From assembly GCF_019800885.1 (NCBI RefSeq), contig NZ_JAHVKE010000007.1, forward strand, positions 1 through 46,246: a DNA stretch of 46,246 bases. The letters are read 5' to 3'. How positions within the stretch are numbered: position 1 is the stretch's first letter; every line of letters starts with the position of its first letter. The notes beneath the pieces are model-generated. The model had not been told where the DNA came from and did not search any database. It saw only the letters and a program-made list of their open reading frames with translations. The stretch is from Maritalea mobilis. Lineage in GTDB: Bacteria; Pseudomonadota; Alphaproteobacteria; Rhodobacterales; Rhodobacteraceae. A program made the position numbers and the translations under genes. Shown here one piece after another: positions 157 through 46,246 of the stretch.

Positions 157-1323
157 ATGTCGACCAAAGACCTCTATCCCTTCCTGCTCACCGAGCAGGC
201 CACCGAGCCGAAATACGATGAGAAAGAGCTCATCGCGTGGTTCACCCGCCACCTTCAGAAGCTACGCTTTAAGCCTCCAAGCCAAGAGGATCTCCAAAAG
301 GTTCTCGACGCCAGGACGGCTCTCAAGGAAGAATGTGGCGTGTCGGACGAGCAAGCCGCTGTCGGCCAGCCTTTCCCCCCGCTTCAGGCCAGCGAGATCT
401 TGCTACGGATGCGCGACCGGGAGCGGATCGCGCGCCGGGCGAAACGCCTCGCCCATGGCAAGACCGTTCCGGTCAATCCGTTTGCTGATCTGCGCAAGGA
501 AGAGGCCGAAAAGCTCAAACCGATCCAGAACGGGCTGCCGGCCGTCATGCCCGGAGATGAACACTGGGCCGACGAGATCGCCGCAGCACTTCACGATGAG
601 ATGCCCTGGATGGGCCCCGCCACTGAACATGCGTGGCACGCCCTGCGCCGGGTGGCGCGCCTTGGCGAGCCGATCACCTTGCGGCCTGTTATCTTGAACG
701 GCCCGTGGGGCATCGGCAAATCCGTCTGGGCCCGCCGCCTGGCCGAGCGGCTGTCCATGCCCTCGATCGAGATCGACGCCTCGAAGAGCGCCGCAGGCTT
801 CGCGCTGACCGGCCTCGAGAGGGGCTGGGGGAGCGCACAGGCTGGGCGACCCCTCGAGGTCATCCTGCAACGCCGGCTGATCAACCCGCTCTGTGTCGTG
901 GACGAGCTCTGCAAGGCCGGGTCAGCGACATCGGGCAAGGGCACCCGCTTCTCGTTCTCCGATGCGCTGCTGTCCCTGCTCGAGCCGGCCACGGCGAAGC
1001 ATTGGGAATGCCCGATGTATCGGCTGCCCTTCGACATGTCGCGGATCTCCTGGGTGCTGACGTCGAACCAGACCGCGACGATCGCCCCGGCTGTTCTGAA
1101 CCGCTGCCAGGTGATCGAGTTGCCCGACGTGACGGCGGACGACCTTGTTCGATTTGCGCGGCGGCAGGGCGTGGCGACGGGTTTAGGCGAAGCTGCAATC
1201 GACGCCGTGGTGGAAGCCATTCTCAGGGGTCCCAAGATCACGCATCGCCGTTTCAGCTTGCGCGACGTCAATCGGCTGCTCGCGCGCGCCGAAACGCTTC
1301 AACACAAGCCGGTGCTGCACTGA
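157..1323 (+). CDS. Lon-like AAA+ ATPase without protease domain
   Basis: This 388-residue AAA+ ATPase has a Walker A motif (GPWGIGKS, about residues 183-190) and a Walker B-like segment (CVVDELCK, about 246-253). They are followed by a stretch with the PFDMSRISWVLTSN pattern, which resembles the sensor-1 region of Lon ('PFDLSKVLFIATAN'), and an arginine-finger-like LNRCQVIELP. The Lon N-terminal substrate domain and the Ser-Lys protease domain are both missing, so it would remodel or unfold a partner rather than degrade it. The N-terminal 150 residues are charged and not recognised. It is the first gene of a tight operon with two small proteins and two metallophosphoesterases. The ATPase call is firm; the substrate is unknown. 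Confidence 0.8.
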   Translation: MSTKDLYPFLLTEQATEPKYDEKELIAWFTRHLQKLRFKPPSQEDLQKVLDARTALKEECGVSDEQAAVGQPFPPLQASEILLRMRDRERIARRAKRLAHGKTVPVNPFADLRKEEAEKLKPIQNGLPAVMPGDEHWADEIAAALHDEMPWMGPATEHAWHALRRVARLGEPITLRPVILNGPWGIGKSVWARRLAERLSMPSIEIDASKSAAGFALTGLERGWGSAQAGRPLEVILQRRLINPLCVVDELCKAGSATSGKGTRFSFSDALLSLLEPATAKHWECPMYRLPFDMSRISWVLTSNQTATIAPAVLNRCQVIELPDVTADDLVRFARRQGVATGLGEAAIDAVVEAILRGPKITHRRFSLRDVNRLLARAETLQHKPVLH

Positions 1324-1334
1324 AGGAGATCGCC

Positions 1335-1469
1335 ATGGAGCGGAAAGACTATTCCATCACGCCCGCGGCGATGGACATTCTCCGGCGCCATCCAAGCCTC
1401 TTTGGCCATGGTCCCTGGGCGGTCGAGAACATCTGCGACAGCTGCGCTGAAAAGGGGAGGCTCAAATGA
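1335..1469 (+). CDS. Small 44-residue hypothetical protein
   Basis: This short ORF starts 12 bases after the AAA+ gene, behind a good ribosome-binding site (AAGGAG, 1323-1328). Its TGA overlaps the ATG of the next gene in an ATGA junction (1466-1469), the coupling used throughout this operon, so it is probably real despite its size. The product starts MERKDYSIT and contains a CDSC pair near the C-terminus that could bind metal or form a disulfide. No family is recognised. Confidence 0.55.
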   Translation: MERKDYSITPAAMDILRRHPSLFGHGPWAVENICDSCAEKGRLK

Positions 1470-1837
1470 TCTTCCGAAAGGACATGGTCGAGGCGGCCGC
1501 CGCTGTGCTGACGGGCCCCACACAAGAGGATCTCGCCGCGGCGCCGACGCTTCATGACTGGGCTTTCGCCATCAGCGGGATCGGCAATCTCTGCCTTGAT
1601 GCCACTGGGGTCACGGGCCACCCGCATCTGCCTGAAGACGAGGCGGTCTTCACCAGCGCCCTGGTTTTTCTTGATCCGGCGCGGGGCCTCGCGCGGACAT
1701 CGTCGCGCTGGTATCGGCTGGGCAAGCACAGGGAAAACGAGGGTAGGTTTCGTCCCGAGATGGCGGATGTTCAGGCCTTCCTGAACGCGCAGCTGGTCTT
1801 GCTTGATGCCGCGCGTCCAGCCTTCGAGGGCCGGTGA
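1466..1837 (+). CDS. Conserved-looking hypothetical protein, 123 residues
   Basis: A soluble protein with no signal peptide or membrane segment. It begins in an ATGA overlap with the preceding small ORF and ends one base into the ATG of the downstream phosphoesterase, so it is translationally coupled on both sides. The middle is dominated by a histidine/proline and hydrophobic stretch (GHPHLPEDEAVFTSALVFLD) and then a basic SSRWYRLG segment. The family is not recognised. Its position suggests it works with the AAA+ ATPase and the phosphoesterases, but this is inference from the operon only. Confidence 0.65.
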   Translation: MIFRKDMVEAAAAVLTGPTQEDLAAAPTLHDWAFAISGIGNLCLDATGVTGHPHLPEDEAVFTSALVFLDPARGLARTSSRWYRLGKHRENEGRFRPEMADVQAFLNAQLVLLDAARPAFEGR

Positions 1838-2394
1838 TGGCAAACCTGTATACAGCCGACCTGCATATCGGCCACGCCCGGATCATCGAATTCTGCAAGC
1901 GTCCCTTCGCCTCTACAAAGGAGATGGACAGCGCTGTTTTGCGCGCCATGCAAGAGGGAATGACACCCGGTGAGGATCTCTGGATCATCGGGGATTTTGC
2001 CTTCGTCAGATCGGATGAGGCGGGCCGCGTCGAGACCATGCTAGCCTCTATCCCCGGCCGCAAGCATCTCGTCCGCGGCAACCACGACAAGCCCTGGATG
2101 GCGAAGCTCCCGGGGTGGGCAAGTGTGCATGATCTCGTCGAGATCCGGGATGGGGGCTCCCGGTTGACGCTGTGCCACTACCCCATGATCACCTTCCCCG
2201 GAGCGCTGCACGGCGCTCTGCAGCTCTTCGGACACGTCCATGAAAACTGGCGTGGATCCCGAAATGCCGTGAACGTCGGTGTCGACGTCTGGAACTTCCG
2301 GCCTGTCGGCTTGGCAGAGATCAAGCACCGCGCGGCGACCCTGCCGATCAATCCCCTGTGGAGCGCCGTAGAGCCAAGGAGCGAATTAGAATGA
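1837..2394 (+). CDS. Calcineurin-like metallophosphoesterase 1
   Basis: A 185-residue metal-dependent phosphoesterase. The binuclear-metal signature is complete and in order: DLHIGH near residue 8, GDFAF near 51, GNHD near 80, the histidine of LCHYP near 110, and GHVH near 128. Family members hydrolyse phosphomonoesters or diesters (nucleotides, RNA, phosphoproteins); the substrate here is unknown. A GTG three bases upstream is an alternative start. I chose the ATG because it overlaps the preceding TGA, as in the neighbouring junctions. It ends in an ATGA overlap with a second phosphoesterase, so the two are made together, yet they differ enough not to be a recent duplication. Confidence 0.82.
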   Translation: MANLYTADLHIGHARIIEFCKRPFASTKEMDSAVLRAMQEGMTPGEDLWIIGDFAFVRSDEAGRVETMLASIPGRKHLVRGNHDKPWMAKLPGWASVHDLVEIRDGGSRLTLCHYPMITFPGALHGALQLFGHVHENWRGSRNAVNVGVDVWNFRPVGLAEIKHRAATLPINPLWSAVEPRSELE

Positions 2395-3242
2395 CCGATC
2401 TCATGCCCCGTATCCTCGTGCTTGGCGACCTTCATGCCGACAGCTGGTGGCGTGTCGGCGCGCGCGTGCTCGACGACATGGGCCTCGGGAGGTGGATCCG
2501 CGACAGCGCGCCTGATCTCCTGATCGTCGCGGGTGACATCGTGAACAACCCCCGACAAAACTGGACCGGGGCCCTGCGCGAGATCGCGGAATACATCCTG
2601 CCTCGGGATGTCGTCATCATCCCCGGCAACCACGACTATTACCGCTTCCACCTCAATGGGGATGACGAGCTGCGCCGTCTGACGGGATCGGTCGGCATGC
2701 GCTTTGCGCAGAAGAACGAGATCCGCATCGGTACGGTCCGGATCTTTTGCTGCACGTTATGGACAGATTTCGCGTTCAATGACGACGCCGAAGGGGGCGC
2801 GGCCGCCGCGCGGCTCGGGCTGAACGATTATGTCCAGATCACCACGGGGCAGTCGCTTGATGTCGCCTCGGGTTACCGCCGGCAGATCCTGCCCGAAGAT
2901 GTGCTGCGCGTGAATGAAGATCACCTCGCATGGCTGACTGAGCGCCTGCACAGCCCGCATTTCGCGGGGCCCGACGGCACGACCCTCGTCGTCACGCATC
3001 ACGGGCCAAGCCCGGCAACGGCGGTGGGTGAGATCGATCATCTTACCCCCGCCTTCCACTCCAACCTTGATCCGCTGATCCTCGAAACGGCGCCCGACGC
3101 CTGGCTCTTCGGGCATTCCCACAGGCGCTGCCAGGCAATGGTCGGCAAGACCGACGTCCGCTGCGTCTCCATCGGCTATCCGTTCGAATGGAACCCTCGG
3201 TCACGCGAAGAGATCAAGGCGCTGGCCCGGCTGCTGCGATGA
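2391..3242 (+). CDS. Calcineurin-like metallophosphoesterase 2
   Basis: A 283-residue phosphoesterase with the full motif set: GDLHAD near the N-terminus, GDIVNN, GNHDYY, THHGPS and GHSHRRC. It is larger than its upstream neighbour, with a longer insert between GNHD and the first C-terminal histidine. The open frame extends upstream to 2358, but the start at 2391 overlaps the preceding stop (ATGA) and places the first metal-binding motif about ten residues in, as is usual. It closes the operon that begins with the Lon-like ATPase. The substrate cannot be inferred. Its size and motif spacing resemble cytosolic phosphodiesterases more than secreted phosphatases. Confidence 0.82.
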   Translation: MTDLMPRILVLGDLHADSWWRVGARVLDDMGLGRWIRDSAPDLLIVAGDIVNNPRQNWTGALREIAEYILPRDVVIIPGNHDYYRFHLNGDDELRRLTGSVGMRFAQKNEIRIGTVRIFCCTLWTDFAFNDDAEGGAAAARLGLNDYVQITTGQSLDVASGYRRQILPEDVLRVNEDHLAWLTERLHSPHFAGPDGTTLVVTHHGPSPATAVGEIDHLTPAFHSNLDPLILETAPDAWLFGHSHRRCQAMVGKTDVRCVSIGYPFEWNPRSREEIKALARLLR

Positions 3243-3360: not shown

Positions 3361-3750
3361 ATGACCAAGACCTATGACGACATCCTCGCAAAACACCCCG
3401 CGCTCCTTGGATCGGAGCCGACGGACCTGAAGGCCTACGGTTTTTGCTGCGGTCCGGGATGGTTGCCCATCCTCGAGAGCCTTTTCGATGATCTCGAGAA
3501 AATCCGGCAAGAAGACGGCCTGACCATCACCGTGTTCCAGGTGAAGGAGAAATTCGGCGAGTTGCGGGTCTATGTCCGGGGCGGCAACGACCGTGTGCAG
3601 CGTCGTCTTCGCGACGCCGAATGGGACGCCATGTTCACGTGCGAAGACTGCGGCGGGCGAAGCCCTGGTGTCCAATCCCTTGGCGGCGGCCTGAACAACC
3701 TCTGCGGAGCATGCCGCAAGAAGCTGAGGCAGTCATGGAAGGATAGGTAG
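3361..3750 (+). CDS. Zinc-ribbon hypothetical protein, 129 residues
   Basis: A small soluble protein with two parts. The N-terminal half has a FCCGPGWLPILESLFDDLE segment and a VKEKFGELRVYVRG strand. The C-terminal half carries paired cysteines (CEDCGG and, about 23 residues later, CGACRKK) that should bind one zinc ion. Proteins of this general layout are frequent in phage and plasmid accessory DNA, but I cannot name a function. It lies 118 bases downstream of the phosphoesterase operon and may have its own promoter. The gap before it shows no other gene. Confidence 0.65.
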   Translation: MTKTYDDILAKHPALLGSEPTDLKAYGFCCGPGWLPILESLFDDLEKIRQEDGLTITVFQVKEKFGELRVYVRGGNDRVQRRLRDAEWDAMFTCEDCGGRSPGVQSLGGGLNNLCGACRKKLRQSWKDR

Positions 3751-4226: not shown

Positions 4227-4982
4227 CTATCGAATGATCTGTGTGGCCACCCAGATGAAAGATATCAAAACGGGTTGGTGGGTCAAATAGACCACGATCG
4301 TGTGCCGTCCGAAGAAGCCGAATACACGCATCGTGCGCGACGTCTTGGTGGTGGAGAGTTTCTCCCAATAGCCTAAGTACGATGCCAATTTCGCCGCCGC
4401 GAGGCCTGCCAAGAAGGCCGCAAACCAGGGGAAAATCGGCTCATAATCCACGGTGCTCAGTGGGATCGTCTGCAAGCCCGTCCACCAAAGCCACGGTGCG
4501 TTGAAAGCCGGGGATGCCGCGAAGTCCGGTGCGAAGAATACCGCGACAGCGAGGAGTACGATGATGACAATCGGAAGGCGCAGAGCGGCCAATCCCAAGA
4601 CGCTGCACAAGGCAATCGAGTGCAGGATGCCGAAGAACACAAAGGCGTCAGGAAACGCAATGTAGGTCGCGACGGAAACCAGCGCTGCCGCCGCCAAAAT
4701 GATGGCCAAACGCCTGCTAAAGGCGGCCCATCTGATGGCATTTGAATGGGACAGCCATAGGCCAACGCCAGCCAAAAACACGAAGGAACCAGCAGAGGCT
4801 ATGGCAAGGCCACGCCAAAAGCCGGCGCTGGTCGTGCCGGGATCGACATAGCCAAAGATCTCCAAATCGAACACAAAGTGAAACACCGCCATCGCCAAAA
4901 GAGCCGCGACCCGTGCGATGTCGAGAACGAAAATGCGGGGACGCGGTGCGGAAACGTCGCCAGTTGTCGTGGTCATGGGCAT
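4227..4982 (-). CDS. DUF1624 / heparan-alpha-glucosaminide acetyltransferase-like membrane protein
   Basis: An integral inner-membrane protein of about 251 residues with seven or so hydrophobic segments. It opens with the family-like pattern RIFVLDIARVAALLAMAVFH followed by FDLEIFG, where the conserved histidine in the first membrane helix is the proposed acyl-transfer residue. The C-terminus has FGRHTIVVYLTHQPVL, typical of acyltransferase-3/DUF1624 relatives. Such proteins are thought to acetylate cell-surface sugars; the substrate here is unknown. The frame is open to 5060, but the first 26 residues look unlike a membrane-protein N-terminus, so I start at the ATG at 4982 (another ATG lies two codons on). 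It sits downstream of the CDF gene on the same strand, about 100 bases away. Confidence 0.72.
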   Translation of the reverse strand: MPMTTTTGDVSAPRPRIFVLDIARVAALLAMAVFHFVFDLEIFGYVDPGTTSAGFWRGLAIASAGSFVFLAGVGLWLSHSNAIRWAAFSRRLAIILAAAALVSVATYIAFPDAFVFFGILHSIALCSVLGLAALRLPIVIIVLLAVAVFFAPDFAASPAFNAPWLWWTGLQTIPLSTVDYEPIFPWFAAFLAGLAAAKLASYLGYWEKLSTTKTSRTMRVFGFFGRHTIVVYLTHQPVLISFIWVATQIIR

Positions 4983-37167: not shown

Positions 37168-39021
37168 TCACTCCTGCAAACTTTCGAAATGTTCCCGCAA
37201 ATACACGGGCCCATAGTCCTGACCATCCGGGGCAAAGGGCTTGATTCCTTCGGATTTGAACAGTCCCTTCAGCGTATTTCGGTGTTTCCCGGTTTCCGCC
37301 GACAAGGTCGTCAGGGTCACAAAGCGACGGTGGAACGCTTCAATGTGCTCCGGGTTCATCCTGTATTGTGGCCGCCCGGTACGTGGGTGTTCGATCGCCT
37401 GCGCCGGTACGTGACCGGCCTCGATAAGGGCCAAAAACGCACCGCCATCCCGCAAGCCGACTGACCTGCCAAATTCGGCGGCAGACACAGTTCCTGGTGC
37501 CTCGTCCAGAACGACATCGAGTGTCGTTTTTTGGGGAGGGACCACACGGTCGACCTCGACCTTCGCGACGACAATACCGTGAAACCCTTCGACCCCAACT
37601 CTTTGCCCGACCTGCAACCGTTTTTCCCGAACCGCGCCAATCAACTCGATAAGTGAGACATTGCGCCTGTTCCGGGCGAGAAGCAGAGTTTCCCAGTCCT
37701 TGTCCGTCTCGCCTACCGGGACGGCATTGGCAGACAGGTCCTCAACCAGGGCAACTCCATCCGAGATGCGCCAAGGGTTCTTCACCTTTTTGACGCGCGT
37801 TCGAGGAACCAAGAGGCCATCCTCAGCGAGCGCCGACAGCTCCTGACGCGTCGCTCCCATCGCATTCCGCATGGCGATTGGCCCAACCAAGGTCGGTATC
37901 TCCGACAAAAGGGCCGCATAGGCCTGCGCATCGAATAGCCTGCGGTTTGCAGGTTTGGGGTCGTTGGGTATGAGAGCGCCCGCTTCGGTCAGGAAGTGTT
38001 CTAGCACTAGGACCCCCATACCGGTCTCAGCGGCTGCCGTCGTGAGCGAATGTAGACGGCGCTCCTCCAAGCACTCTCCCAAAACCACCTCGCCGGGCCC
38101 GATTGGCCAATGTGCAAGAATACAATCCCGCAGGATTTGGCGGAACGGCGCGAAAGCCTCTTCATCCAGATAATCCCGAGCAAGATTTGAGTAGAGGCGC
38201 CTAAAAACACCTGACGGTTCATCCAAATAGCCGGTCGTTGTAGCTGCGATCTGATCAAGTACCCGTCGAGCCGCCTCTGGGCCGTAGACCGCCGCATCGA
38301 AGCCCAGAGCGTGAGGATTGTCGGGTGACGAATGCTGGCCTGCTGTCCCCCGTCGGGCCATCGCTTCGCCAAGCCCCTTCAGGAATGTCGTCACAGCGAA
38401 TACTGAGTGTTCCCGGAACCACGTACCGTCCGTGCCTTTTTCCAGACGTTGGTCAAGCCAGAGGTCATAGGCCGATGGCGTGACGCAGGCCTGATCCAGT
38501 GCGCCCGACATGATGTCGTGCTCCAACTCGCGAAGCCGGGCCCCGATGTCGAAACGATCTTTCACTGCCGTCGCGGTCCACAACGGGACAAGGGGGTGGC
38601 CATGTTCGATGCAAAGCGTCACTTCACGGAATAGCCAATCGCCGCGCATGACCATCGCCGTGGTTCCACTACCGTTGGCACGAAGCGCGTCCTCACGCAG
38701 ACAAATCGGGCACCCCCGCATCACCGGATTTCTCAGCGCACGAGAAACGAAAACCTCCCCCCGAAATTCCATGCGAACTTCGCCAGTCCGGACCCCGGTC
38801 CATGACAGAAGCTCTTCCAGAAGGTCCGGTTCGAGCTGAGCCCAATCGGCCAAGATTTCGAGGGCGTCCTCATCCTGATCCAACAGCCGTTTGAAGGAGG
38901 CTCCCATATCATATGCCAAATCGGGAGCTTCCGTCTGCCAAGTCGCGGCAAGGCGTGCGAGGTAGGAGAATAAAGTTTCACGAGGCGCGGGTCTCGGGCT
39001 GGAGATGGGCAGGAAGGACAT
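37168..39021 (-). CDS. tniQ: TniQ/TnsD-like target-selection protein
   Basis: A 617-residue TniQ-family protein, the target-choosing partner of Tn7-like transposases. The N-terminal domain begins FLPISSPRPAPRETLFSYLARL, and the zinc finger is visible as CPICLRE (C104, C107) with C137 and H140 in LCIEHGHPL. The length is closer to TnsD than to short TniQ. The long C-terminal half contains a helix-turn-helix-like end (LTTLSAETGKHRNTLKGLFKSEGI) that could contact target DNA. The frame begins with a TTG at 39036; I use the ATG at 39021. It follows the methylase-like gene on the same strand, divergent from tnsABC. Confidence 0.87.
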   Translation of the reverse strand: MSFLPISSPRPAPRETLFSYLARLAATWQTEAPDLAYDMGASFKRLLDQDEDALEILADWAQLEPDLLEELLSWTGVRTGEVRMEFRGEVFVSRALRNPVMRGCPICLREDALRANGSGTTAMVMRGDWLFREVTLCIEHGHPLVPLWTATAVKDRFDIGARLRELEHDIMSGALDQACVTPSAYDLWLDQRLEKGTDGTWFREHSVFAVTTFLKGLGEAMARRGTAGQHSSPDNPHALGFDAAVYGPEAARRVLDQIAATTTGYLDEPSGVFRRLYSNLARDYLDEEAFAPFRQILRDCILAHWPIGPGEVVLGECLEERRLHSLTTAAAETGMGVLVLEHFLTEAGALIPNDPKPANRRLFDAQAYAALLSEIPTLVGPIAMRNAMGATRQELSALAEDGLLVPRTRVKKVKNPWRISDGVALVEDLSANAVPVGETDKDWETLLLARNRRNVSLIELIGAVREKRLQVGQRVGVEGFHGIVVAKVEVDRVVPPQKTTLDVVLDEAPGTVSAAEFGRSVGLRDGGAFLALIEAGHVPAQAIEHPRTGRPQYRMNPEHIEAFHRRFVTLTTLSAETGKHRNTLKGLFKSEGIKPFAPDGQDYGPVYLREHFESLQE

Positions 39022-39123
39022 ACTGGCTACCGGCAAAGCAAAATGCGACGTGTGAGCGAGTTGAGGACAGTTTGGTAGGAGACGGTTGCGGCAACTAGTT
39101 ATGAAATGGCAGCTTACTCATAA

Positions 39124-40881
39124 TTATTTTTCATCTTCGCTTTTCGGCCGGCTCCAGACTGCACCCCATACGCGATCCAGTCCGTCATTCATGCGCGCTT
39201 CGATTTCTCTTATCTTGGCGCGATTTTGCCGCAAGCGCTGATACTCCGACAGAAAAAGATTGGAAGCGCTTTCCGCTTCCGGAGAATGGGATGGTTTCTT
39301 GGCATTTTTTCGAAGGACCAAGCTCTCTGGCACTCCAAAGCGTTCGACTTCACCGATTGGGATTGCCGGGCTTCGCCTGTCTGTGGCCTTTCCTTGCCAT
39401 GACTCCTGCACCTTGGCGGTCAGTAGGTACATGAACAAGGCTCTCGGGTCGCAGGACGGCATATCTGACGATTGGACGTACTTCCTCCGCGGCCGAATGA
39501 TCAGCAGCGTCTGACCCGCCCATAGGCTCATGTTGTCAAGGTCTTCCTCTGAAACATATGCGACGCACCCTACTGGCCCGCGGTGGGCAAACAGGATGTC
39601 ACGAGGCCTTATGCGTTGCTCATCCAGTCGGCGTTCTACCGTTGCGCGTAAATTGACGCTGCGAAAAGGCCCCGACAATTCACCATAGGTCGCAAGGTTC
39701 CCCGCGCTGACCTCATGAATGGTCAGCGTTCCGACAGGATCATTCTTCGTTGTCTTCGGCCTGATGATATCGAACAAGTCCGAGAGCGGGTATTGCGTGG
39801 CGGTCATCAAATTTCGGAAATGCGCCGCTATGCTTGGACCGCCCACGGGGCCCGTCGTGAGGTATCGGGTTGGTGACAGAAAGTCACCTGAGGTTCGCAC
39901 CTCTTGCGTGGGTACCGTCCGTGACTTTCCACGGATATCCCGACTGTACGGATCCGAGCCGACGAAGCGCTGAACCGTGTTGGTGGATACCATCTGGATG
40001 GTTTCGCTAGGGCCCTCACCCCAGGCAAGCTCCACCAAGTGCCGCTTGTCTTGCGGCTCCGAGAAGGCCGCTACCCGCCTGACCCGCCCCATATCCATGA
40101 GGTGCTGGCGTGCCATGAGGCGCGACTGTTTCGTTGAGGTCAGAAAGCGCTCAGACACGAAAACCAAAGCCTGTGAAGTCGTGCCGCAAAGGTACTCCAG
40201 CATAACGCTTTCAAGATCGTACTTTCCCCGGTCAACGGCGCGGGGCAGCCGATACTTTCGCACGCTGGTTTCAAGATCAGGTGCGTCATTCATGCTGAAC
40301 TCGCTTGGCGGGAACGAAATCTCGAGTCCCGGGGACTCTGTGATTGGTTCCCCATCATCGAAGAGCTGGTCTGGCTCCCAAGGTGGATTTGACTCTGTGT
40401 AGACAGGCAGATCGAGAAACAGAGATGCAAATGCCATGAGCTGCCGGTCTGGTCCGATACCAGCGTACCTGATGTCATAGCCCGGATAGCGATTTCTGCG
40501 AGCCGGCCGGGTCAATCGCGCGCGGTGAAGACAAAGCAGAAGGCTGGTTTCAAATGAAAACCGGACAGTCTCCTCGGAGCAGCTGGCTTTCAGCAGTGCT
40601 TCAAAAAGCTCATCATTCAGGCTTGCATCGTCAGGAAGCGCTCGAGCAATCAACTTGCAGACTTCAATGAAGCGTTCGTCTTCGCCAAAGCCGTCGAGAT
40701 GCCGAGCGAAGTCCTCCAAGGCGCCGCGGAACTGCGGCTCATACGTCGATAGGTCGAAACGGCCCTCGAGACGTTTGAGTTCGCTTAGGTCCGCGTCACG
40801 ACCCCGCAATTGGATGGCAAAACGCAAGAGCCGCGTCAGGCCTTCGATCGTGTCAGTTTCCAACTCCGACGGCCCGTCCAT
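39124..40881 (-). CDS. Degenerate N6-adenine methylase/specificity-like protein
   Basis: A 585-residue protein whose layout resembles type I restriction-modification methylases fused to a DNA-recognition half. Residues about 135-160 (YDIRYAGIGPDRQLMAFASL) correspond to the region after SAM motif I, but no GxG-type motif I is seen. Where the catalytic NPPF/Y is expected there is ISFPPSEF (about 188-195). An earlier NPPW at 165-168 is out of place. About 235-275 resembles the post-catalytic V-F-V-x-x-R-F-L segment of methylases. Residues about 370-520 look like an S-subunit target-recognition domain (RPRDILFAHRGPVGCVAYV). No HsdR or second MTase is nearby, so it is probably a DNA-binding, non-methylating relative. 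It lies 102 bases upstream of tniQ. Confidence 0.6.
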   Translation of the reverse strand: MDGPSELETDTIEGLTRLLRFAIQLRGRDADLSELKRLEGRFDLSTYEPQFRGALEDFARHLDGFGEDERFIEVCKLIARALPDDASLNDELFEALLKASCSEETVRFSFETSLLLCLHRARLTRPARRNRYPGYDIRYAGIGPDRQLMAFASLFLDLPVYTESNPPWEPDQLFDDGEPITESPGLEISFPPSEFSMNDAPDLETSVRKYRLPRAVDRGKYDLESVMLEYLCGTTSQALVFVSERFLTSTKQSRLMARQHLMDMGRVRRVAAFSEPQDKRHLVELAWGEGPSETIQMVSTNTVQRFVGSDPYSRDIRGKSRTVPTQEVRTSGDFLSPTRYLTTGPVGGPSIAAHFRNLMTATQYPLSDLFDIIRPKTTKNDPVGTLTIHEVSAGNLATYGELSGPFRSVNLRATVERRLDEQRIRPRDILFAHRGPVGCVAYVSEEDLDNMSLWAGQTLLIIRPRRKYVQSSDMPSCDPRALFMYLLTAKVQESWQGKATDRRSPAIPIGEVERFGVPESLVLRKNAKKPSHSPEAESASNLFLSEYQRLRQNRAKIREIEARMNDGLDRVWGAVWSRPKSEDEK

Positions 40882-41506
40882 CTACTCGTTACTCCTGACT
40901 AAACACACTCACGACCGAACGATGGATCAAACTGCTACGCCAGGAAAGCACACGCCCCCAGAAGCGGGCGAGAAACATCTATCAGCATCCGATAGGTGCC
41001 GGCATGAACGCGCTCTTTTCCTCGCCGCCCCTCCCGTCATTCGCTACCGTTTGGGCATGAGCGTCGCAGCTGAACAAGATGAAGACAGCGAAACGCGAAG
41101 GTTCATGACTACGAAGATTCCGGTCCGAGGCTTCCGACTCCCCCATGAGCAGCCAAGGACCGGGCGTCAGAAGGAAAGGAAGGCTGCACAAGAGGGTAGG
41201 ACAGCGATCAAAACGGGTGAGAATCACGCGCCGAATCTTCGTGATGAAGGCGGCTACAACGGCAGGTTTTCAACGGACGCGCGAGGCGCTCTCGGTAGAA
41301 AACCGTGTTCGCTGATCGTTTTCACAAAGACGAAAGCAAAGTTCGGAATGACACCGGCACGAAATCTAGTGCCAAGGCGGGACAGAGAACCAAGCCCTCG
41401 CCCGCATGCATCGCGAAAAAGCCCCATCGGTTTCATTTTCGCAAGACCCTGAAAATATTGTATTTTATTTCCCACAGCCGGGGCTGGTGATATAGAACTG
41501 CCCGTC

Positions 41507-41564: not shown

Positions 41565-41598
41565 AAACGACTGATCCGTTGGCGCGGATCAGTCGTTT
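41565..41598 (+). promoter_or_regulatory. Perfect 14-bp hairpin before tnsA (possible attenuator)
   Basis: AAACGACTGATCCG (41565-41578) pairs perfectly with CGGATCAGTCGTTT (41585-41598) across a 6-base loop. Three Ts end the stem but no long T-tract follows, so it may pause or attenuate rather than terminate. It begins 14 bases after the leader ORF stop, close enough for a stalled ribosome to affect it. Confidence 0.55.
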
Positions 41599-41826
41599 CA
41601 GGACGGCGTAAACCACCCTTGTTTCCACCTTCGTCGGTATCACATCGACGCTCCTGCCTCAAGGTTTCCCGTCTAATCCTGCTGACCCTGCACCCCGCGC
41701 TTCGCGGGAACGGTGACGGCTTGCGTGAAGCTCCGTTGCCGCACCTTCGATGCAGGTGAAGCGTCAAACGATGACGCGGACCGACTTTTCGGTCGCGGTG
41801 GTATTTCACGAGACCAAGCTAAAACC

Positions 41827-42606
41827 ATGCCCAAGACCCAAAAGAACTACGTCGAATACTTCGATTTCGTCAAAGACAATGATACGTGGTGGTACGCACC
41901 CCAGAAACTGCCGCGAAAGAGCCCCATCGAGTTGGATGAAATCCACGGCGTTCTGGGTTTTGACGGCGTGCGCAATCCAAGCTCGCGCAGCAACACCAGC
42001 CACAAGGTGTTCATTCCATACCGCACGCCGGCCAATGATTGGGTGCCCAAGGTCGGCATTGCGGAAAGCGCTGCTGAGGCTGCTGTGTCGGTGCAGGTGC
42101 TCCTATCACGAGACACCTTCGATCTGCACTTCCAGCCGCTCACCGTCGAATTCCAAGATGAAGACGGTCGCACTCGCGCCTACACCCATGACCTCCTCAT
42201 CACGTTATGCTCGGGGCACCGTCGCCTCGTCTTCGTCCGCAATGAAAGCAGCCTGGAAAAGCCGAGAACCATGCGGGACATCGCGGCCATCAGTGCCGCG
42301 ACACCCAAGAGCGCGGCGGATGATTTGATCGTTGTGAATGCAAACGACTACACGCGGCAGCGCCGCGAAAACCTTTTCAGGATGTATGCGATGATGGCTG
42401 ATCCTGATCCGGAAGCGGATGAGATCGTCTGGCAGACTGCGCGAAATCTGCGGACGCTTTATCACATGAAGGATCTGTTCCCGCATGTGCCCATTTCTCA
42501 GCGTCGCGCCTTTCGAGCTTGCTACCGTTTGGTCGCGCAGGGCGCTCTTTCCGCGAACCTCGATCATGTTCTCTGGGAGCACTCGCGCCTGGAGGTCGCC
42601 GCATGA
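41827..42606 (+). CDS. tnsA: TnsA-like transposon endonuclease
   Basis: A 259-residue protein matching TnsA, which makes the 5'-strand cuts at transposon ends with TnsB. The fold is of the restriction-endonuclease type. A catalytic glutamate is in AESAAEAAV (E84 or E80), the QP and D of the core are in HFQPLTVEF and YTHDLLITL (D122), and the expected lysine strand reads RLVFVRNE, with Arg138 in the lysine position. That substitution could weaken or abolish cutting, or another lysine may serve. The frame is open from 41713, but the ATG at 41827 gives a natural start. It overlaps tnsB by ATGA. Confidence 0.85.
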   Translation: MPKTQKNYVEYFDFVKDNDTWWYAPQKLPRKSPIELDEIHGVLGFDGVRNPSSRSNTSHKVFIPYRTPANDWVPKVGIAESAAEAAVSVQVLLSRDTFDLHFQPLTVEFQDEDGRTRAYTHDLLITLCSGHRRLVFVRNESSLEKPRTMRDIAAISAATPKSAADDLIVVNANDYTRQRRENLFRMYAMMADPDPEADEIVWQTARNLRTLYHMKDLFPHVPISQRRAFRACYRLVAQGALSANLDHVLWEHSRLEVAA

Positions 42607-44945
42607 GCATCACCCCGCGTTACAATCTTCTTCCGGGAACCGAGATCACTCTGCTCAACCGGCCAATGGCAGTCACTGGAAGCAATGACGTTGGATACAC
42701 GGCAGTCGGCCTCGAGGACGGTGTCGCGACTGTCGTTCCCTATGAAAAGTTCGTCGAGTACCTCAAGCTTCCCGGGGCAAGGATCAACAGCGCGCAACCC
42801 GCGAACGGTGATCACATCCGGAAGCGGCTTGGTGGCCACGAGTCGATCATGTCCCTGAAAAACAAAGATCAGCAGGCTCTGGGACGATTTCACGTGGCCA
42901 TGTGTCAGGTCGTGGATATTTATGTTGCTTTGCGACAAGAAGACGATCCGCGTTTTCGCCCGACCGTCCGGAACCTGAGCACATTGAGCGCCCGCCGGTT
43001 TATCGCTGAACAAACGACACTGCTGTTGGAAGAGCCTGTTCGAATCGCGCCGCGTCGTGGAGGAGAGAAAACCAAAGCGCGCATTCTCTACAAAGGCCGC
43101 ACAATCCTGAAATACTACAATAGGTATAAGAAGCTCGGCAATGGTGAGGGCGTGGCCGAGGCCCTCGTTCCATTGACGCACCTACGTGGTAACAGGTCGC
43201 CGCGTATTTCCGTACCACTCCGCGATTTGATGACCAAAGCCTGGGGCGAATTTGGCTTCGACCTAAGAGGATATTCGATCGCGAATGTTCACCAATACCT
43301 TGAGACGCTCGTTCATGAGGAGAACAAGCGCCGCATCTTGAACGAGTTGCCAGAACTCGCTGTGCCATCAAAGAAGACGCTTCGAGAGCACCGTGACCGC
43401 CTCGTCACACCAACTGAGTATGCGATTGTAGTAGACGGGCTTCGAGAAACCCGCCGAAAGCATGGGCGGGGCAGCACTGACTTCCGGGCGCTCATGCCTG
43501 GTGAGCTCTGCGGCATGGACGAGCAGAAAATGTCGCTCGTGACGTCTGCAAAAGAGAAAGGCTTCTGGCACACCCTCTCGGACGAAACGAAACGGGCCTA
43601 TGAAAAGGCGGATGAGTATATTCGAAAACGGCTTCACATCATCGTCCTTTTTGATGTTGCCAGCCGCATGCCTTTGGCATGGATCATTACTGAACACCCG
43701 AATGCAGAGGCTACTCTTGCCCTTCTGCGCATGGCGACCCGTGACAAGACCCGCGAAAAGATCCGCTACGGGTGCAAAAATGATCCCGCCGGGGAGTGCG
43801 GTATTCACCTTTTGCGAAACGATAATGGGTCAGGGCTACGAAATTCACCTGTCATCGCATCATCGATGGGAATTGGAACGATCAACGAAATCACCCGAAC
43901 GTACTCTCCTACGGACCGTGCTCATGATGAACGTTTTTTTGGAACAGTGGAGTCGTGTTTTTTCAAGGTGATGCCGGGATACACGGGGCGCCGGCCGGGG
44001 GACATCCCCGGTTACGACGCAATCAAGAATGGGGTTGTCGATGTGGAACTCTTGTATGCCATGCTGACCCGCTACCTCGTGGACGAATACCCTTTTCAAA
44101 AGCACTATGGCGTTGGCATTTTCGGCCGCCGTCCTTGGGATGTCTATAATGAGCTCAACGACACCCGCGGGAAGGCTGGTGTGATCGATCCCCACACCCG
44201 CCGCATTCATCTCGGCTGGCAGGTCTGCACCACCCCTTCCGATGAAGGCGTGCGCGTCTTCGAGGGTATTTGGTTCAACTCGGGCGAACTGCAGCTGGCC
44301 CGCGAAGAGCAGTTCTTCAAAGGGAAAGTCGAGGTCTTTGTCGACCCCGACAATTTGAACATTGCCACGGTCCTCATGCCGGGCGTGCCGGATCCGATCG
44401 AAGTCACCCTTCAGACGACCGCATTCGCAGACATGACCCTGGGCGAAGTCCTGCAGTTGGTCGCCGAGTATCGTCGCGAGGATCCGCACGTCACTGAACT
44501 CTATCATGACCGCCTGATGGAAGCGCGGACACGCCGTTACGCGGACATCTCGTCCATCGGTGTCGAACACGACCTGCCCCGCAGCTATTCGACCATCGAG
44601 GAGTGCAAGGCACTTGCGAAGGCGGTCTTCGCAGGCGCCCGTGTTCCACGCACAAGGCAGCTAGACGGCACAACCTCTCCAGACGATGTCACCAACTTGG
44701 CGCAAAGCGACGGGGTTTTCGCCATCGGTGAAGAACCCTCCGTCATTGATGGGACGGCTGAAGAAGTGCCCGCTACCTCCGAGCCGTCGTCGGACGACCA
44801 GTCCACTGACCATCGGACACAGGAGCAACAATCGCCGGGCGCTTCGGCGAGCAACCCATCTCCCCCCAAGGGAAAGGCGCCTCGCACACGCAAGTCGCAG
44901 TCCATGAAATCCGCGCGTCCTTCCAACCTCAAGGAGTTGAAGTAA
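42603..44945 (+). CDS. tnsB: TnsB-like DDE transposase
   Basis: A 780-residue transposase of the TnsB/MuA/TniA class. The integrase-like core has Asp306 in LCGMDEQKM, Asp407 in RNDNGSG and Glu443 in AHDERFFGTVE (the 36-residue D-E spacing is right). An N-terminal DNA-binding half with several HTH segments and a C-terminal tail rich in Pro/Ser/Lys (about the last 90 residues, likely the TnsC-contact tail) complete it. The frame is open upstream to 42519, but the ATG at 42603 overlaps the tnsA stop. Its stop overlaps tnsC (TAATG). All three catalytic residues are present. Confidence 0.92.
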   Translation: MSITPRYNLLPGTEITLLNRPMAVTGSNDVGYTAVGLEDGVATVVPYEKFVEYLKLPGARINSAQPANGDHIRKRLGGHESIMSLKNKDQQALGRFHVAMCQVVDIYVALRQEDDPRFRPTVRNLSTLSARRFIAEQTTLLLEEPVRIAPRRGGEKTKARILYKGRTILKYYNRYKKLGNGEGVAEALVPLTHLRGNRSPRISVPLRDLMTKAWGEFGFDLRGYSIANVHQYLETLVHEENKRRILNELPELAVPSKKTLREHRDRLVTPTEYAIVVDGLRETRRKHGRGSTDFRALMPGELCGMDEQKMSLVTSAKEKGFWHTLSDETKRAYEKADEYIRKRLHIIVLFDVASRMPLAWIITEHPNAEATLALLRMATRDKTREKIRYGCKNDPAGECGIHLLRNDNGSGLRNSPVIASSMGIGTINEITRTYSPTDRAHDERFFGTVESCFFKVMPGYTGRRPGDIPGYDAIKNGVVDVELLYAMLTRYLVDEYPFQKHYGVGIFGRRPWDVYNELNDTRGKAGVIDPHTRRIHLGWQVCTTPSDEGVRVFEGIWFNSGELQLAREEQFFKGKVEVFVDPDNLNIATVLMPGVPDPIEVTLQTTAFADMTLGEVLQLVAEYRREDPHVTELYHDRLMEARTRRYADISSIGVEHDLPRSYSTIEECKALAKAVFAGARVPRTRQLDGTTSPDDVTNLAQSDGVFAIGEEPSVIDGTAEEVPATSEPSSDDQSTDHRTQEQQSPGASASNPSPPKGKAPRTRKSQSMKSARPSNLKELK

Positions 44946-45916
44946 TGTCATTCGTCAAAAAGTCGGTGGTCGACGTTCGAAAGCCCCTGATGAAGGCCCG
45001 CTTTCCGTTCAACCGAGCGCAGGGCCTCGCCGAGGCCATGACCATGTGCGCCACGGATTACTATATCAAAGCCTCTATCGGCGGCCGTTTTGAGGCTTCC
45101 GGGATTTTGGTGATCGGTGACTCCCGGCAAGGGAAGTCGACCGAAATCGATGTCATGTTGGAGCGCCTCAACGATGGATCAACCATCATGCCCGATGGGC
45201 GTCCAGCTCGGATTATTTCATGTCTTCTGTCCGGCAGGGTCACCTGGAAAGATCTCGGCGTCGAAATTCTGGACGTCCTCGAGTACCCGCTTCGAGGGAG
45301 GCACTCGCAAAGCGAGATTTGGTCCAAGGTCAGAAAGTATGCGGAGCTTCAGGGTGTGGTTGGCATTCACTTTGATGAGTGCCAGCACGTGTTCACGGAA
45401 AACGACAGCCTGACCAACCAGAAACTTCTGGATAGCTTCAAATCCCTTCTGAAGGATCATAAGTGGCCGCTGATGCTGATCTTCTCCGGGGTGCCCAGCC
45501 TCGCCGCCCAAATTCAGAAGGAAGAGCAGCTCTACAGGCTCCTGCGCACCGTGAGCTTTTCCGGCATCGATCTCGCGAACAAAACCGACAAGGACGAGCT
45601 CCTTCATCTTATCTTTAGCTACTGTGACAAGGCGCAGCTTGAGTTCGATGACTTCGAGCTGGATGACTTCATGGAACGCTTGGTTTTCGCGACATGCCAA
45701 CGATGGGGGCTGGTGATCGAGCTCTTGATCGAAACTCTGACGGTCACGCTTCGTGCAAATGAAAAAGTCTGCACTATTGACCATTTCTCCGAAGGGTTTT
45801 CGCGTCGGACTGGTTTGCCTTTGGGTTATTCGCCCTTCACGATGCCCAACTATCAAAACAGCTTTGACCAAGACAAATTGTTCGACGCCTACGAGGAAAT
45901 GCGCAAGAAAAAGTGA
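44945..45916 (+). CDS. tnsC: TnsC-like AAA+ transposition regulator
   Basis: A 323-residue AAA+ ATPase that would link TnsAB to the target-choosing TniQ. Walker A is GDSRQGKST (residues 58-66); Walker B is VVGIHFDECQHVF (D144, E145 region); a sensor-1-like LMLIFSGVPS follows. The size and the FDECQ box match TnsC/TniB. It begins at the ATG in TAATG and is the last gene of the tnsABC operon; an intrinsic terminator follows 26 bases after the stop. Both nucleotide-binding motifs look intact. Confidence 0.9.
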   Translation: MSFVKKSVVDVRKPLMKARFPFNRAQGLAEAMTMCATDYYIKASIGGRFEASGILVIGDSRQGKSTEIDVMLERLNDGSTIMPDGRPARIISCLLSGRVTWKDLGVEILDVLEYPLRGRHSQSEIWSKVRKYAELQGVVGIHFDECQHVFTENDSLTNQKLLDSFKSLLKDHKWPLMLIFSGVPSLAAQIQKEEQLYRLLRTVSFSGIDLANKTDKDELLHLIFSYCDKAQLEFDDFELDDFMERLVFATCQRWGLVIELLIETLTVTLRANEKVCTIDHFSEGFSRRTGLPLGYSPFTMPNYQNSFDQDKLFDAYEEMRKKK

Positions 45917-45968: not shown

Positions 45969-45986
45969 TCTTCAGCAATGTGAGGT

Positions 45987-46150
45987 GTGCATGGTTATGG
46001 TTCGAGCGTGCATCCTTATGCCATCGGATTTCGATGACGTGCAATTTTATTGTTTAATATCAATATATTGAGGGGGTGAGTTTTGATTGCGAATCACCTG
46101 AGCGTGCATACATATGCCCCATCCACAGTAGATGGGGCATATGTATGCAC
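45987..46150. repeat. Array of GCAT-N4-ATGC dyads ending in a 20-bp inverted repeat
   Basis: Four copies share the core GTGCAT-N3-TATGC: 45987 (GTGCATGGTTATGG), 46008 (GTGCATCCTTATGCC), 46104 and, reversed, 46131-46150. A weaker copy sits at 46039. The last two form a perfect inverted repeat: GTGCATACATATGCCCCATC (46104-46123) and its complement (46131-46150) around CACAGTA. The first two are 21 bp apart, two helical turns. Because each core is itself a near-palindrome, orientation is ambiguous. They could be TnsB-binding sites at a transposon end, iterons or operators; no T-tract supports termination. Confidence 0.65.
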
Positions 46151-46246
46151 AAAACGGCTGTTTTTGATGCAAACCCTGTCAAGGATTTTTCGCCCCTCCT
46201 GGCCAGAAGTCAATTAAGGCTTTGCTAACATGGGGAAAATAATGGG
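46151..46246. other. Unassigned right edge
   Basis: No gene is visible in the last 96 bases. If the inverted repeat is a transposon terminus, this is flanking DNA, beginning AAAACGG after the terminal ...GCACA. Confidence 0.3.

Follow-up and report, generated by a model that had tools for sequence, protein, structure and literature searches.

A Tn7-like transposon of Maritalea mobilis carries, divergent from its tnsA gene, a gene for a 585-aa protein (hereafter M, or M1 when compared with its twin) that belongs to a family of HsdM/HsdS-like fusions, lacks the methylase motifs I and IV and has stayed under constraint. A twin, M2, occupies the same position in a second Tn7-like element of this genome, and the only two CTATC-N7-GATAG palindromes of the genome lie one before each of the two genes. 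The reading that we tentatively favour is that M may be an intact, non-catalytic, self-regulating DNA-binding pseudo-methylase that stands alone in a variable slot beside tnsA. Within this reading it could quite possibly be accessory to transposition and not a required target selector; M is probably best seen as a DNA-binding passenger that controls itself, and not as a factor that steers the element. The window, i.e. the whole stretch of DNA that was analysed (46,246 nt), is the entire contig C7, and its main features are the following.

157 to 1323, plus strand: AAA ATPase of the left end, 92.5% identical to its counterpart in element 2.
37168 to 39036, minus strand: tniQ, encoding TniQ1 (PF06527, E 6.1e-18), on the same strand as M.
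39124 to 40881, minus strand: M, a pseudo-HsdM/single-TRD fusion, apparently catalytically degenerate; ATG start, 585 aa.
41713 to 42606, plus strand: tnsA-like gene, given as the longest ORF (PF08722, E 9.3e-4, below cut-off).
42519 to 44945, plus strand: tnsB-like transposase gene, given as the longest ORF (rve, E 0.0023, below cut-off).
44945 to 45916, plus strand: tnsC-like ATPase gene (TniB, E 2e-8; AAA_22, E 3e-9).
45986 to 46127: right end of the element, with repeated TnsB-site-like sequences ending ...CCCCATCCACA at 46127.
46128 to 46132: 5-bp target duplication GTAGA, with a second copy on contig C1, 11 nt after a tRNA-Arg gene.
46133 to 46246: part of a resident left-end copy (tandem insertion).

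Searched alone, M gave no match at E<=1 in Pfam and NCBIfam, the TniQ model of Pfam included, and none at E<=10 in the PDB. PADLOC detected a similarity to type I specificity subunits that peaks at residues 413-518 (E 3.3e-5), and a profile of the 11-member family matched the solved HsdM 3lkd (E 1.3e-11) and HsdS 5ybb (E 9.6e-12) in the PDB, in agreement with the initial annotation, which had described a methylase-like and specificity-like protein at this place and had proposed to check its fold. M has an HsdM-like domain and one HsdS-like recognition domain; these profile matches are what the fold check yielded, while the AlphaFold2 model of the single M sequence is unusable (pLDDT 36.3, pTM 0.24). 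The consensus of SAM motif I is DPxxGxG. In an alignment with ten other family members, the positions that we take to be motifs I and IV read VRFSFETSLLLCLHRAR and ISFPPSEF in M, the latter aligned as SFPPS in M1 and SFPPA in M2 and not as NPPF/Y/W, which bears out the earlier remark that motif I is lacking and that ISFPPSEF stands in place of NPPF. DPxxGxG is missing from both M1 and M2 and is found in the neighbouring true HsdM and in the host HsdM; the true HsdM encoded beside one relative has DPTIGTG and NPPF. The search for a complete SAM-binding and catalytic site in M found none, both motifs being lost. An NPPW does occur at residues 165-168, and it was rejected as a catalytic motif because the M2 equivalent is GPPW and because it aligns upstream of motif IV. 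M thus appears to have lost catalysis, and it is conceivable, as part of the whole reading given above and with the same reserve, that it combines a gamma-type adenine-methylase fold devoid of AdoMet and catalytic motifs with one type I recognition domain and a C-terminal coil.

With TnsA, TnsB, TnsC, TniQ, repeated end sites and a 5-bp duplication, the window is by its features one Tn7-like transposon (element 1). The Pfam matches of TnsA and TnsB are below cut-off when taken alone, yet both proteins match those of relatives; the true tnsA start probably lies further in than that of the longest ORF. By longest ORF, tniQ lies 87 nt downstream of M, and the ATG at 39021 may be its true start. 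The arrangement that had been noticed at the outset, i.e. M directly upstream of tniQ on the same strand with tnsABC divergent, was confirmed by the ORFs and by Pfam. GTAGA is found before the left end on contig C1 and after the right end in the window, and we read it as a duplication at the two junctions. On C1 the left end comes just after tRNA-Arg(TCT), with the duplicated bases starting 11 nt and the element 16 nt from the gene. Positions 46131-46246 match the end of contig C1 in 115 of their 116 nt, and in our reading the window element landed in the left end of an older element. Both elements of the genome adjoin another left-end copy outside their right end (window 46128-46246; L008 from 4826-4880), a tandem insertion next to older remnants. 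Between M and tnsA, positions 41565-41598 form a strong inverted repeat with 14-nt arms and a 6-nt loop; the corresponding region of element 2 has no inverted-repeat arms as long as 14 nt.

Among the 35 ORFs of the window scanned with Pfam, the cargo includes metal-handling and transport genes, and there is no restriction subunit and no true HsdM subunit; M has no restriction partner among them, as had been stated before, and a complete restriction system within the window was rejected. The stretch 4227-36707 is rich in copper and metal genes (P-type ATPases, cation efflux, PCuAC, SCO1, multicopper oxidase) and also holds DsbA/DsbB, ScsC-like proteins and a two-component system. The left-end stretch 157-3242 encodes the AAA ATPase, a DUF6634 protein and metallophosphoesterases, which recur singly or together in Tn7-like elements of this order at 34-51% identity (L065 11741-14996; L141, L146, L147, L153, L158 and L159).

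A search of the own genome with M returned M itself and M2 (C4:282862-284610, minus strand), which is 49% identical over the full length, and no third copy; the TAG flagged at M2 is the stop codon of M2 itself. Between M1 and M2 we obtained dN 0.43 and a saturated dS of 2.77, while identity by part is 62% in the pseudo-methylase core, 58% in the TRD and 30-46% in the other parts. By these substitution patterns M is an intact protein under constraint. The full-length twin and the low dN/dS rule out a decaying gene, and the word decayed in the initial annotation did not hold.

M2 is divergent from the tnsA of element 2, which is followed by tnsB, tnsC and tniQ, so that tniQ2 stands after tnsC and away from M2. 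The gap between M and tnsA, measured by ORF starts, is 0.66 and 0.83 kb in the two elements, and the two genes are divergent both times. Site-like repeats with a 22-bp period mark the ends of element 2 at C4:258655 and C4:290701-290815, M2 therefore being within the element; its target duplication is, as we read the sequence, TGTGT, and the gene immediately before the element is NDUFS4-like (PF04800). CBASS genes and a UvrD-type helicase came up among those of its cargo ORFs that were scanned, and a complete restriction system was rejected here also, none being found in this set. PADLOC lists two CBASS-type cyclases and a SAVED-HNH effector in this element (L013 16479-19276, L007 1588-2826 and L007 6935-9841, helicase included).

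Comparison of the two elements sets M apart from its neighbours. Identity between elements 1 and 2 is 19% for TnsA (114 columns, E 0.03), 21% for TnsB, 24% for TnsC and 27% for TniQ, so the M pair, at 49%, is much more alike than the Tns proteins. Since the insertion sites differ (tRNA-Arg for element 1, the NDUFS4-like gene for element 2) and the TniQs share 27% identity, against 58% for the recognition domains of M1 and M2, M does not follow the insertion site. The left-end genes are 92-95% identical between the elements, which indicates that cargo moved recently between them, though not M; as these identities are read, this is a recent left-arm exchange between unrelated Tn7-like elements of one genome. 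The matching segments are window 157-1323 (92.5%) and 3361-3750 (95%) against C4:258953-260658, despite Tns proteins of 19-27% identity.

We then compared 36 related tns loci (20, 13 and 3 plasmid stretches, picked from Tns matches), and tblastn found M in none of them. When the count is restricted to loci that include tnsA and 2.5 kb or more of the sequence before it, M is present in 0 of 23; TnsB identity in these is 42-69% in 13 loci, including four relatives of element 2 at 67-69%, and 25-38% in the other ten. Of the remaining 13 loci, five have a shorter upstream stretch, six are without a tnsA match and two without a tnsB match. Among the 390 genomes of the order set (E<=1e-20, own genome included), relatives of TnsC1 occur in 77 genomes and relatives of TnsB2 in 88, and despite this the full-length M is limited to the own genome. 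The initial annotation had considered that M, paired with tniQ, could help TniQ to choose a target, and had proposed to follow the tniQ-M pair across related tnsABC loci; M is missing from the 23/23 with enough sequence, an absence of the kind that the annotation had named as refuting, and M2 is not beside tniQ2, so that this part of the annotation is not supported. A role of M as the target-selection partner of TniQ, to which its place directly upstream of tniQ on one strand in the window had pointed, is accordingly extremely improbable: besides the 23 loci and the distant position of tniQ2, the locus L073 has a TniQ 54% identical to that of the window, facing tnsA with no M between (its tnsB is incomplete), and the two M recognition domains are similar although the two elements sit at different sites. 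With a twin in element 2 and a palindrome upstream of both genes, M may still have an accessory, perhaps regulatory, role.

The region upstream of tnsA looks like a variable cargo slot. In relatives it holds genes with no Pfam match or with below-cut-off Xre/MbcA-like, TIR-like or peptidase-like matches, and in a related locus a DNA polymerase IV family gene lies further from tnsA. The AAA gene is found in 6 of the 36 compared loci, directly upstream of tnsA in five, and its tns linkage is thus commoner than that of M. In a plasmid element of Paracoccus ferrooxidans (L065 1748-7184), two tniQ genes flank an ORC-CDC6-like ATPase gene upstream of tnsA. Such a slot could mean that M is ordinary cargo, an orphan piece of a restriction or defence system lodged in a hot spot by tnsA with no role for the element, its palindrome serving M expression only. 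We regard this as a plausible if somewhat doubtful reading. It is consistent with the absence of M from 23/23 comparable relatives, with the other genes (e.g. TIR-like or Xre/MbcA-like, Pfam below cut-off) that fill the slot there, with the CBASS genes carried by element 2 and with a passage of PMC8649781 that gives RM modules as the commonest defence cargo of Tn7-like elements. It accounts less well for the fact that M, a very rare protein among the searched genomes, nevertheless has both copies in the same slot upstream of tnsA and in the same orientation in unrelated elements, which argues against pure chance, and that neither M1 nor M2 has the hsdM partner present at nine of ten distant relatives.

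These distant relatives were the sole matches found outside the own genome. There is no other full-length M among the 195 genomes of the relatives set (distant relatives in 3), none outside the own genome among the 390 of the order set (distant relatives in 6), and among the 385 of the class set M is in the own genome only, with 0 distant relatives; the three sets have genomes in common, and each species is represented by one genome. A search of 72,556 plasmid records gave one distant match and no full-length copy, and a phage search gave no M. Two pattern scans of genome contigs (92 and 74 stretches) confirmed no M and a scan of viral contigs (103 stretches) found none, such scans requiring exact short peptides, possibly omitting records of own or near genomes and being able to miss relatives.

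The distant relatives come from ten loci (the genome sets and one plasmid) and are proteins of ~530-580 aa, the plasmid one being a split copy annotated as two genes, with stops in one frame. An hsdM gene directly follows the pseudo-HsdM gene at 9/10 loci, by motif reading and annotation and, for one, Pfam; the tenth (L030) has 1.2 kb of downstream sequence only. At three loci there are also hsdS and hsdR, two of these by reading of ORFs, and no tns genes were found near the relatives at the four loci checked. All six relatives scanned with Pfam matched N6_Mtase as well as Methylase_S; of the 12 matches, that of P0009 to Methylase_S is below cut-off. Although whole-length identity to M is 21-23%, hhalign of M1/M2 against seven relatives gave 99.8% (E 9.7e-29) over residues 47-573. 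Motif I is absent from 11/11 aligned rows, and motif IV in the relatives reads MSPF, MAPF, FPPF and similar; on this alignment the pseudo-HsdM family looks dead as a methylase, and since the loss of motifs I and IV is family-wide, the lesion predates the association with the transposon. The relatives, e.g. the 'N-6 DNA methylase' of the Roseovarius sp. S88 plasmid NZ_CP146070.1, have the domain order of M and the same lost motifs; they precede hsdM (9/10 loci), whereas M is solitary in a transposon. By our reading of the DNA, a similar small ORF (~90 aa) lies just upstream in these type I operons (L010, L011, L012, L009, L028, L029, L031, L032 and L033), possibly a further component of this type I variant.

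The usual company of the family raises a further possibility, that M joins or titrates a host type I complex through its HsdM- and HsdS-like parts and shields the incoming element from restriction. The host does have a type I locus on contig C1, with one N6_Mtase match over cut-off beside ORFs that we read as HsdS and HsdR, and the family of M normally accompanies type I systems. The genome-wide search found M and M2 only, with no M relative at the host type I locus, and we consider an anti-restriction role quite improbable.

The favoured reading, a self-regulating DNA-binding pseudo-methylase, draws on a short sequence shared by the two M upstream regions.

40979 to 40995 of the window: interrupted palindrome CTATCAGCATCCGATAG, 97 nt upstream of the M start codon.
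C4:284702-284718: its M2 counterpart CTATCAGACGCTGATAG, 91 nt upstream of the M2 start codon.

BLAST between the two M-tnsA intergenic regions gave one match above noise (20 nt, 90%, E 0.029). In the 3.67-Mb genome CTATC-N7-GATAG occurs at two sites only, one before each M, where about 1.9 sites would be expected from the base composition of the elements; a reversed control pattern likewise occurs at two places. Concerning position, 51 of 20,000 simulated Markov pairs shared an inverted repeat, 2 of them with distances that agree within 10 nt; for 62,500 pairs of real 400-nt stretches, one from each element, the corresponding figures were 330 and 20. These real pairs are not independent, and both controls were designed after the palindrome had been seen, the palindrome itself having been found by comparing the two M regions. 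In the 36 tns loci without M the pattern occurs once, within a tnsB gene, and among all 164 loci scanned the sole match beyond the two M sites is that in tnsB (L069, with an overlapping copy, L037). In these loci, then, the palindrome tracks M and not tns. A scan of the window with <=2 mismatches gave 8 extra sites against 9.2 expected, and we claim no second site. Upstream of the ten type I-associated relatives there is nothing like CTATC-N7-GATAG and no palindrome common across groups, which leaves family-wide autoregulation unsupported. Besides, a promoter scan near M and M2 found no sigma-70-like promoter.

The same letters could act in RNA, the palindrome being an attenuator or terminator hairpin in the M leader and not a protein site. 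Read in the M direction, both copies can fold into a 7-bp stem around a 3-nt loop, with a G-U pair in M1; the M2 palindrome is followed by T9 in this direction and scores as terminator-like, as does the M1 hairpin, and the predicted fold of the M1 leader includes the stem. Against this, M1 lacks a long T run, the stem is absent from the minimum-free-energy fold predicted for the M2 leader, and terminator-like sites are in no clear excess over shuffles in either region (6 vs 3.7 and 4 vs 3.1). We find the hairpin rather unlikely.

As for how a pseudo-methylase of this kind could work on a DNA site, two M chains would join through their C-terminal coils so that their recognition domains oppose each other; this dimer would bind the candidate site CTATC-N7-GATAG, ~95 nt upstream of the M start, and the bound M may control the promoter of its gene and perhaps also the divergent region. 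Dimer formation, DNA binding and autoregulation are what we infer by analogy, from the single-TRD, homodimeric-type build of M together with the symmetric 5-N7-5 site. Stronger still would be the proposal that a dead restriction-type methylase was recruited as a dedicated regulator of Tn7-like elements, a dimer at CTATC-N7-GATAG timing the expression of the element; we hold this to be decidedly unlikely, and if it were true, recognition domains that evolved for restriction would serve transposon control. At hand in any case is a restriction-derived, apparently non-catalytic, putative DNA reader that two unrelated elements carry at one and the same position, its candidate site being present twice in the genome. 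The finding also draws attention to an unexplained family of dead methylase/specificity proteins encoded ahead of hsdM in type I restriction operons.

Published systems offer parallels for the build of M, for its position and for its candidate site. According to sections of PMC3874165, type I proteins with a single TRD work in opposed pairs and target symmetric interrupted sites, and homodimeric gamma-MTases with a type I-like specificity domain recognise interrupted palindromes; a part of PMC2877798 gives GAAN7TTC as the site of EcoR124INT, a single-TRD HsdS pair. M resembles M.XmnI and M.DrdI, to which the same sections of PMC3874165 ascribe a C-terminal type I TRD-like domain and suggested coiled-coil helices, although M lacks their catalytic motifs and its specificity is predicted from a candidate site. 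The non-canonical type I enzymes with two M subunits carry NPPF and NPPY in the portion of PMC9613975 that describes them, unlike M, which has neither at the aligned position.

Among transposon proteins, the titles and abstract openings of the literature searched describe no methylase-like Tn7 factor, and the main text of a Tn7 target selector survey (PMC10293859) contains no word starting with 'restriction' or 'methyl'. The TniQ, TnsD and TnsF selectors in that text act in the same element class as M, whereas M has no consistent linkage to it. Excerpts of PMC9938897 describe RM systems as frequent cargo of CASTs, with no evidence of mechanistic cooperation with the CAST machinery. A further parallel is with CvkR and the Arc-type repressors of type V-K CASTs, which according to the same excerpts are encoded divergently beside a core element gene: the divergent position is common to both, and the conserved palindromic site of the CvkR-like proteins would have a counterpart in the candidate site of M, while CvkR is a MerR-type protein of 139-185 aa conserved across many elements, whereas M is a 585-aa pseudo-methylase present in two.
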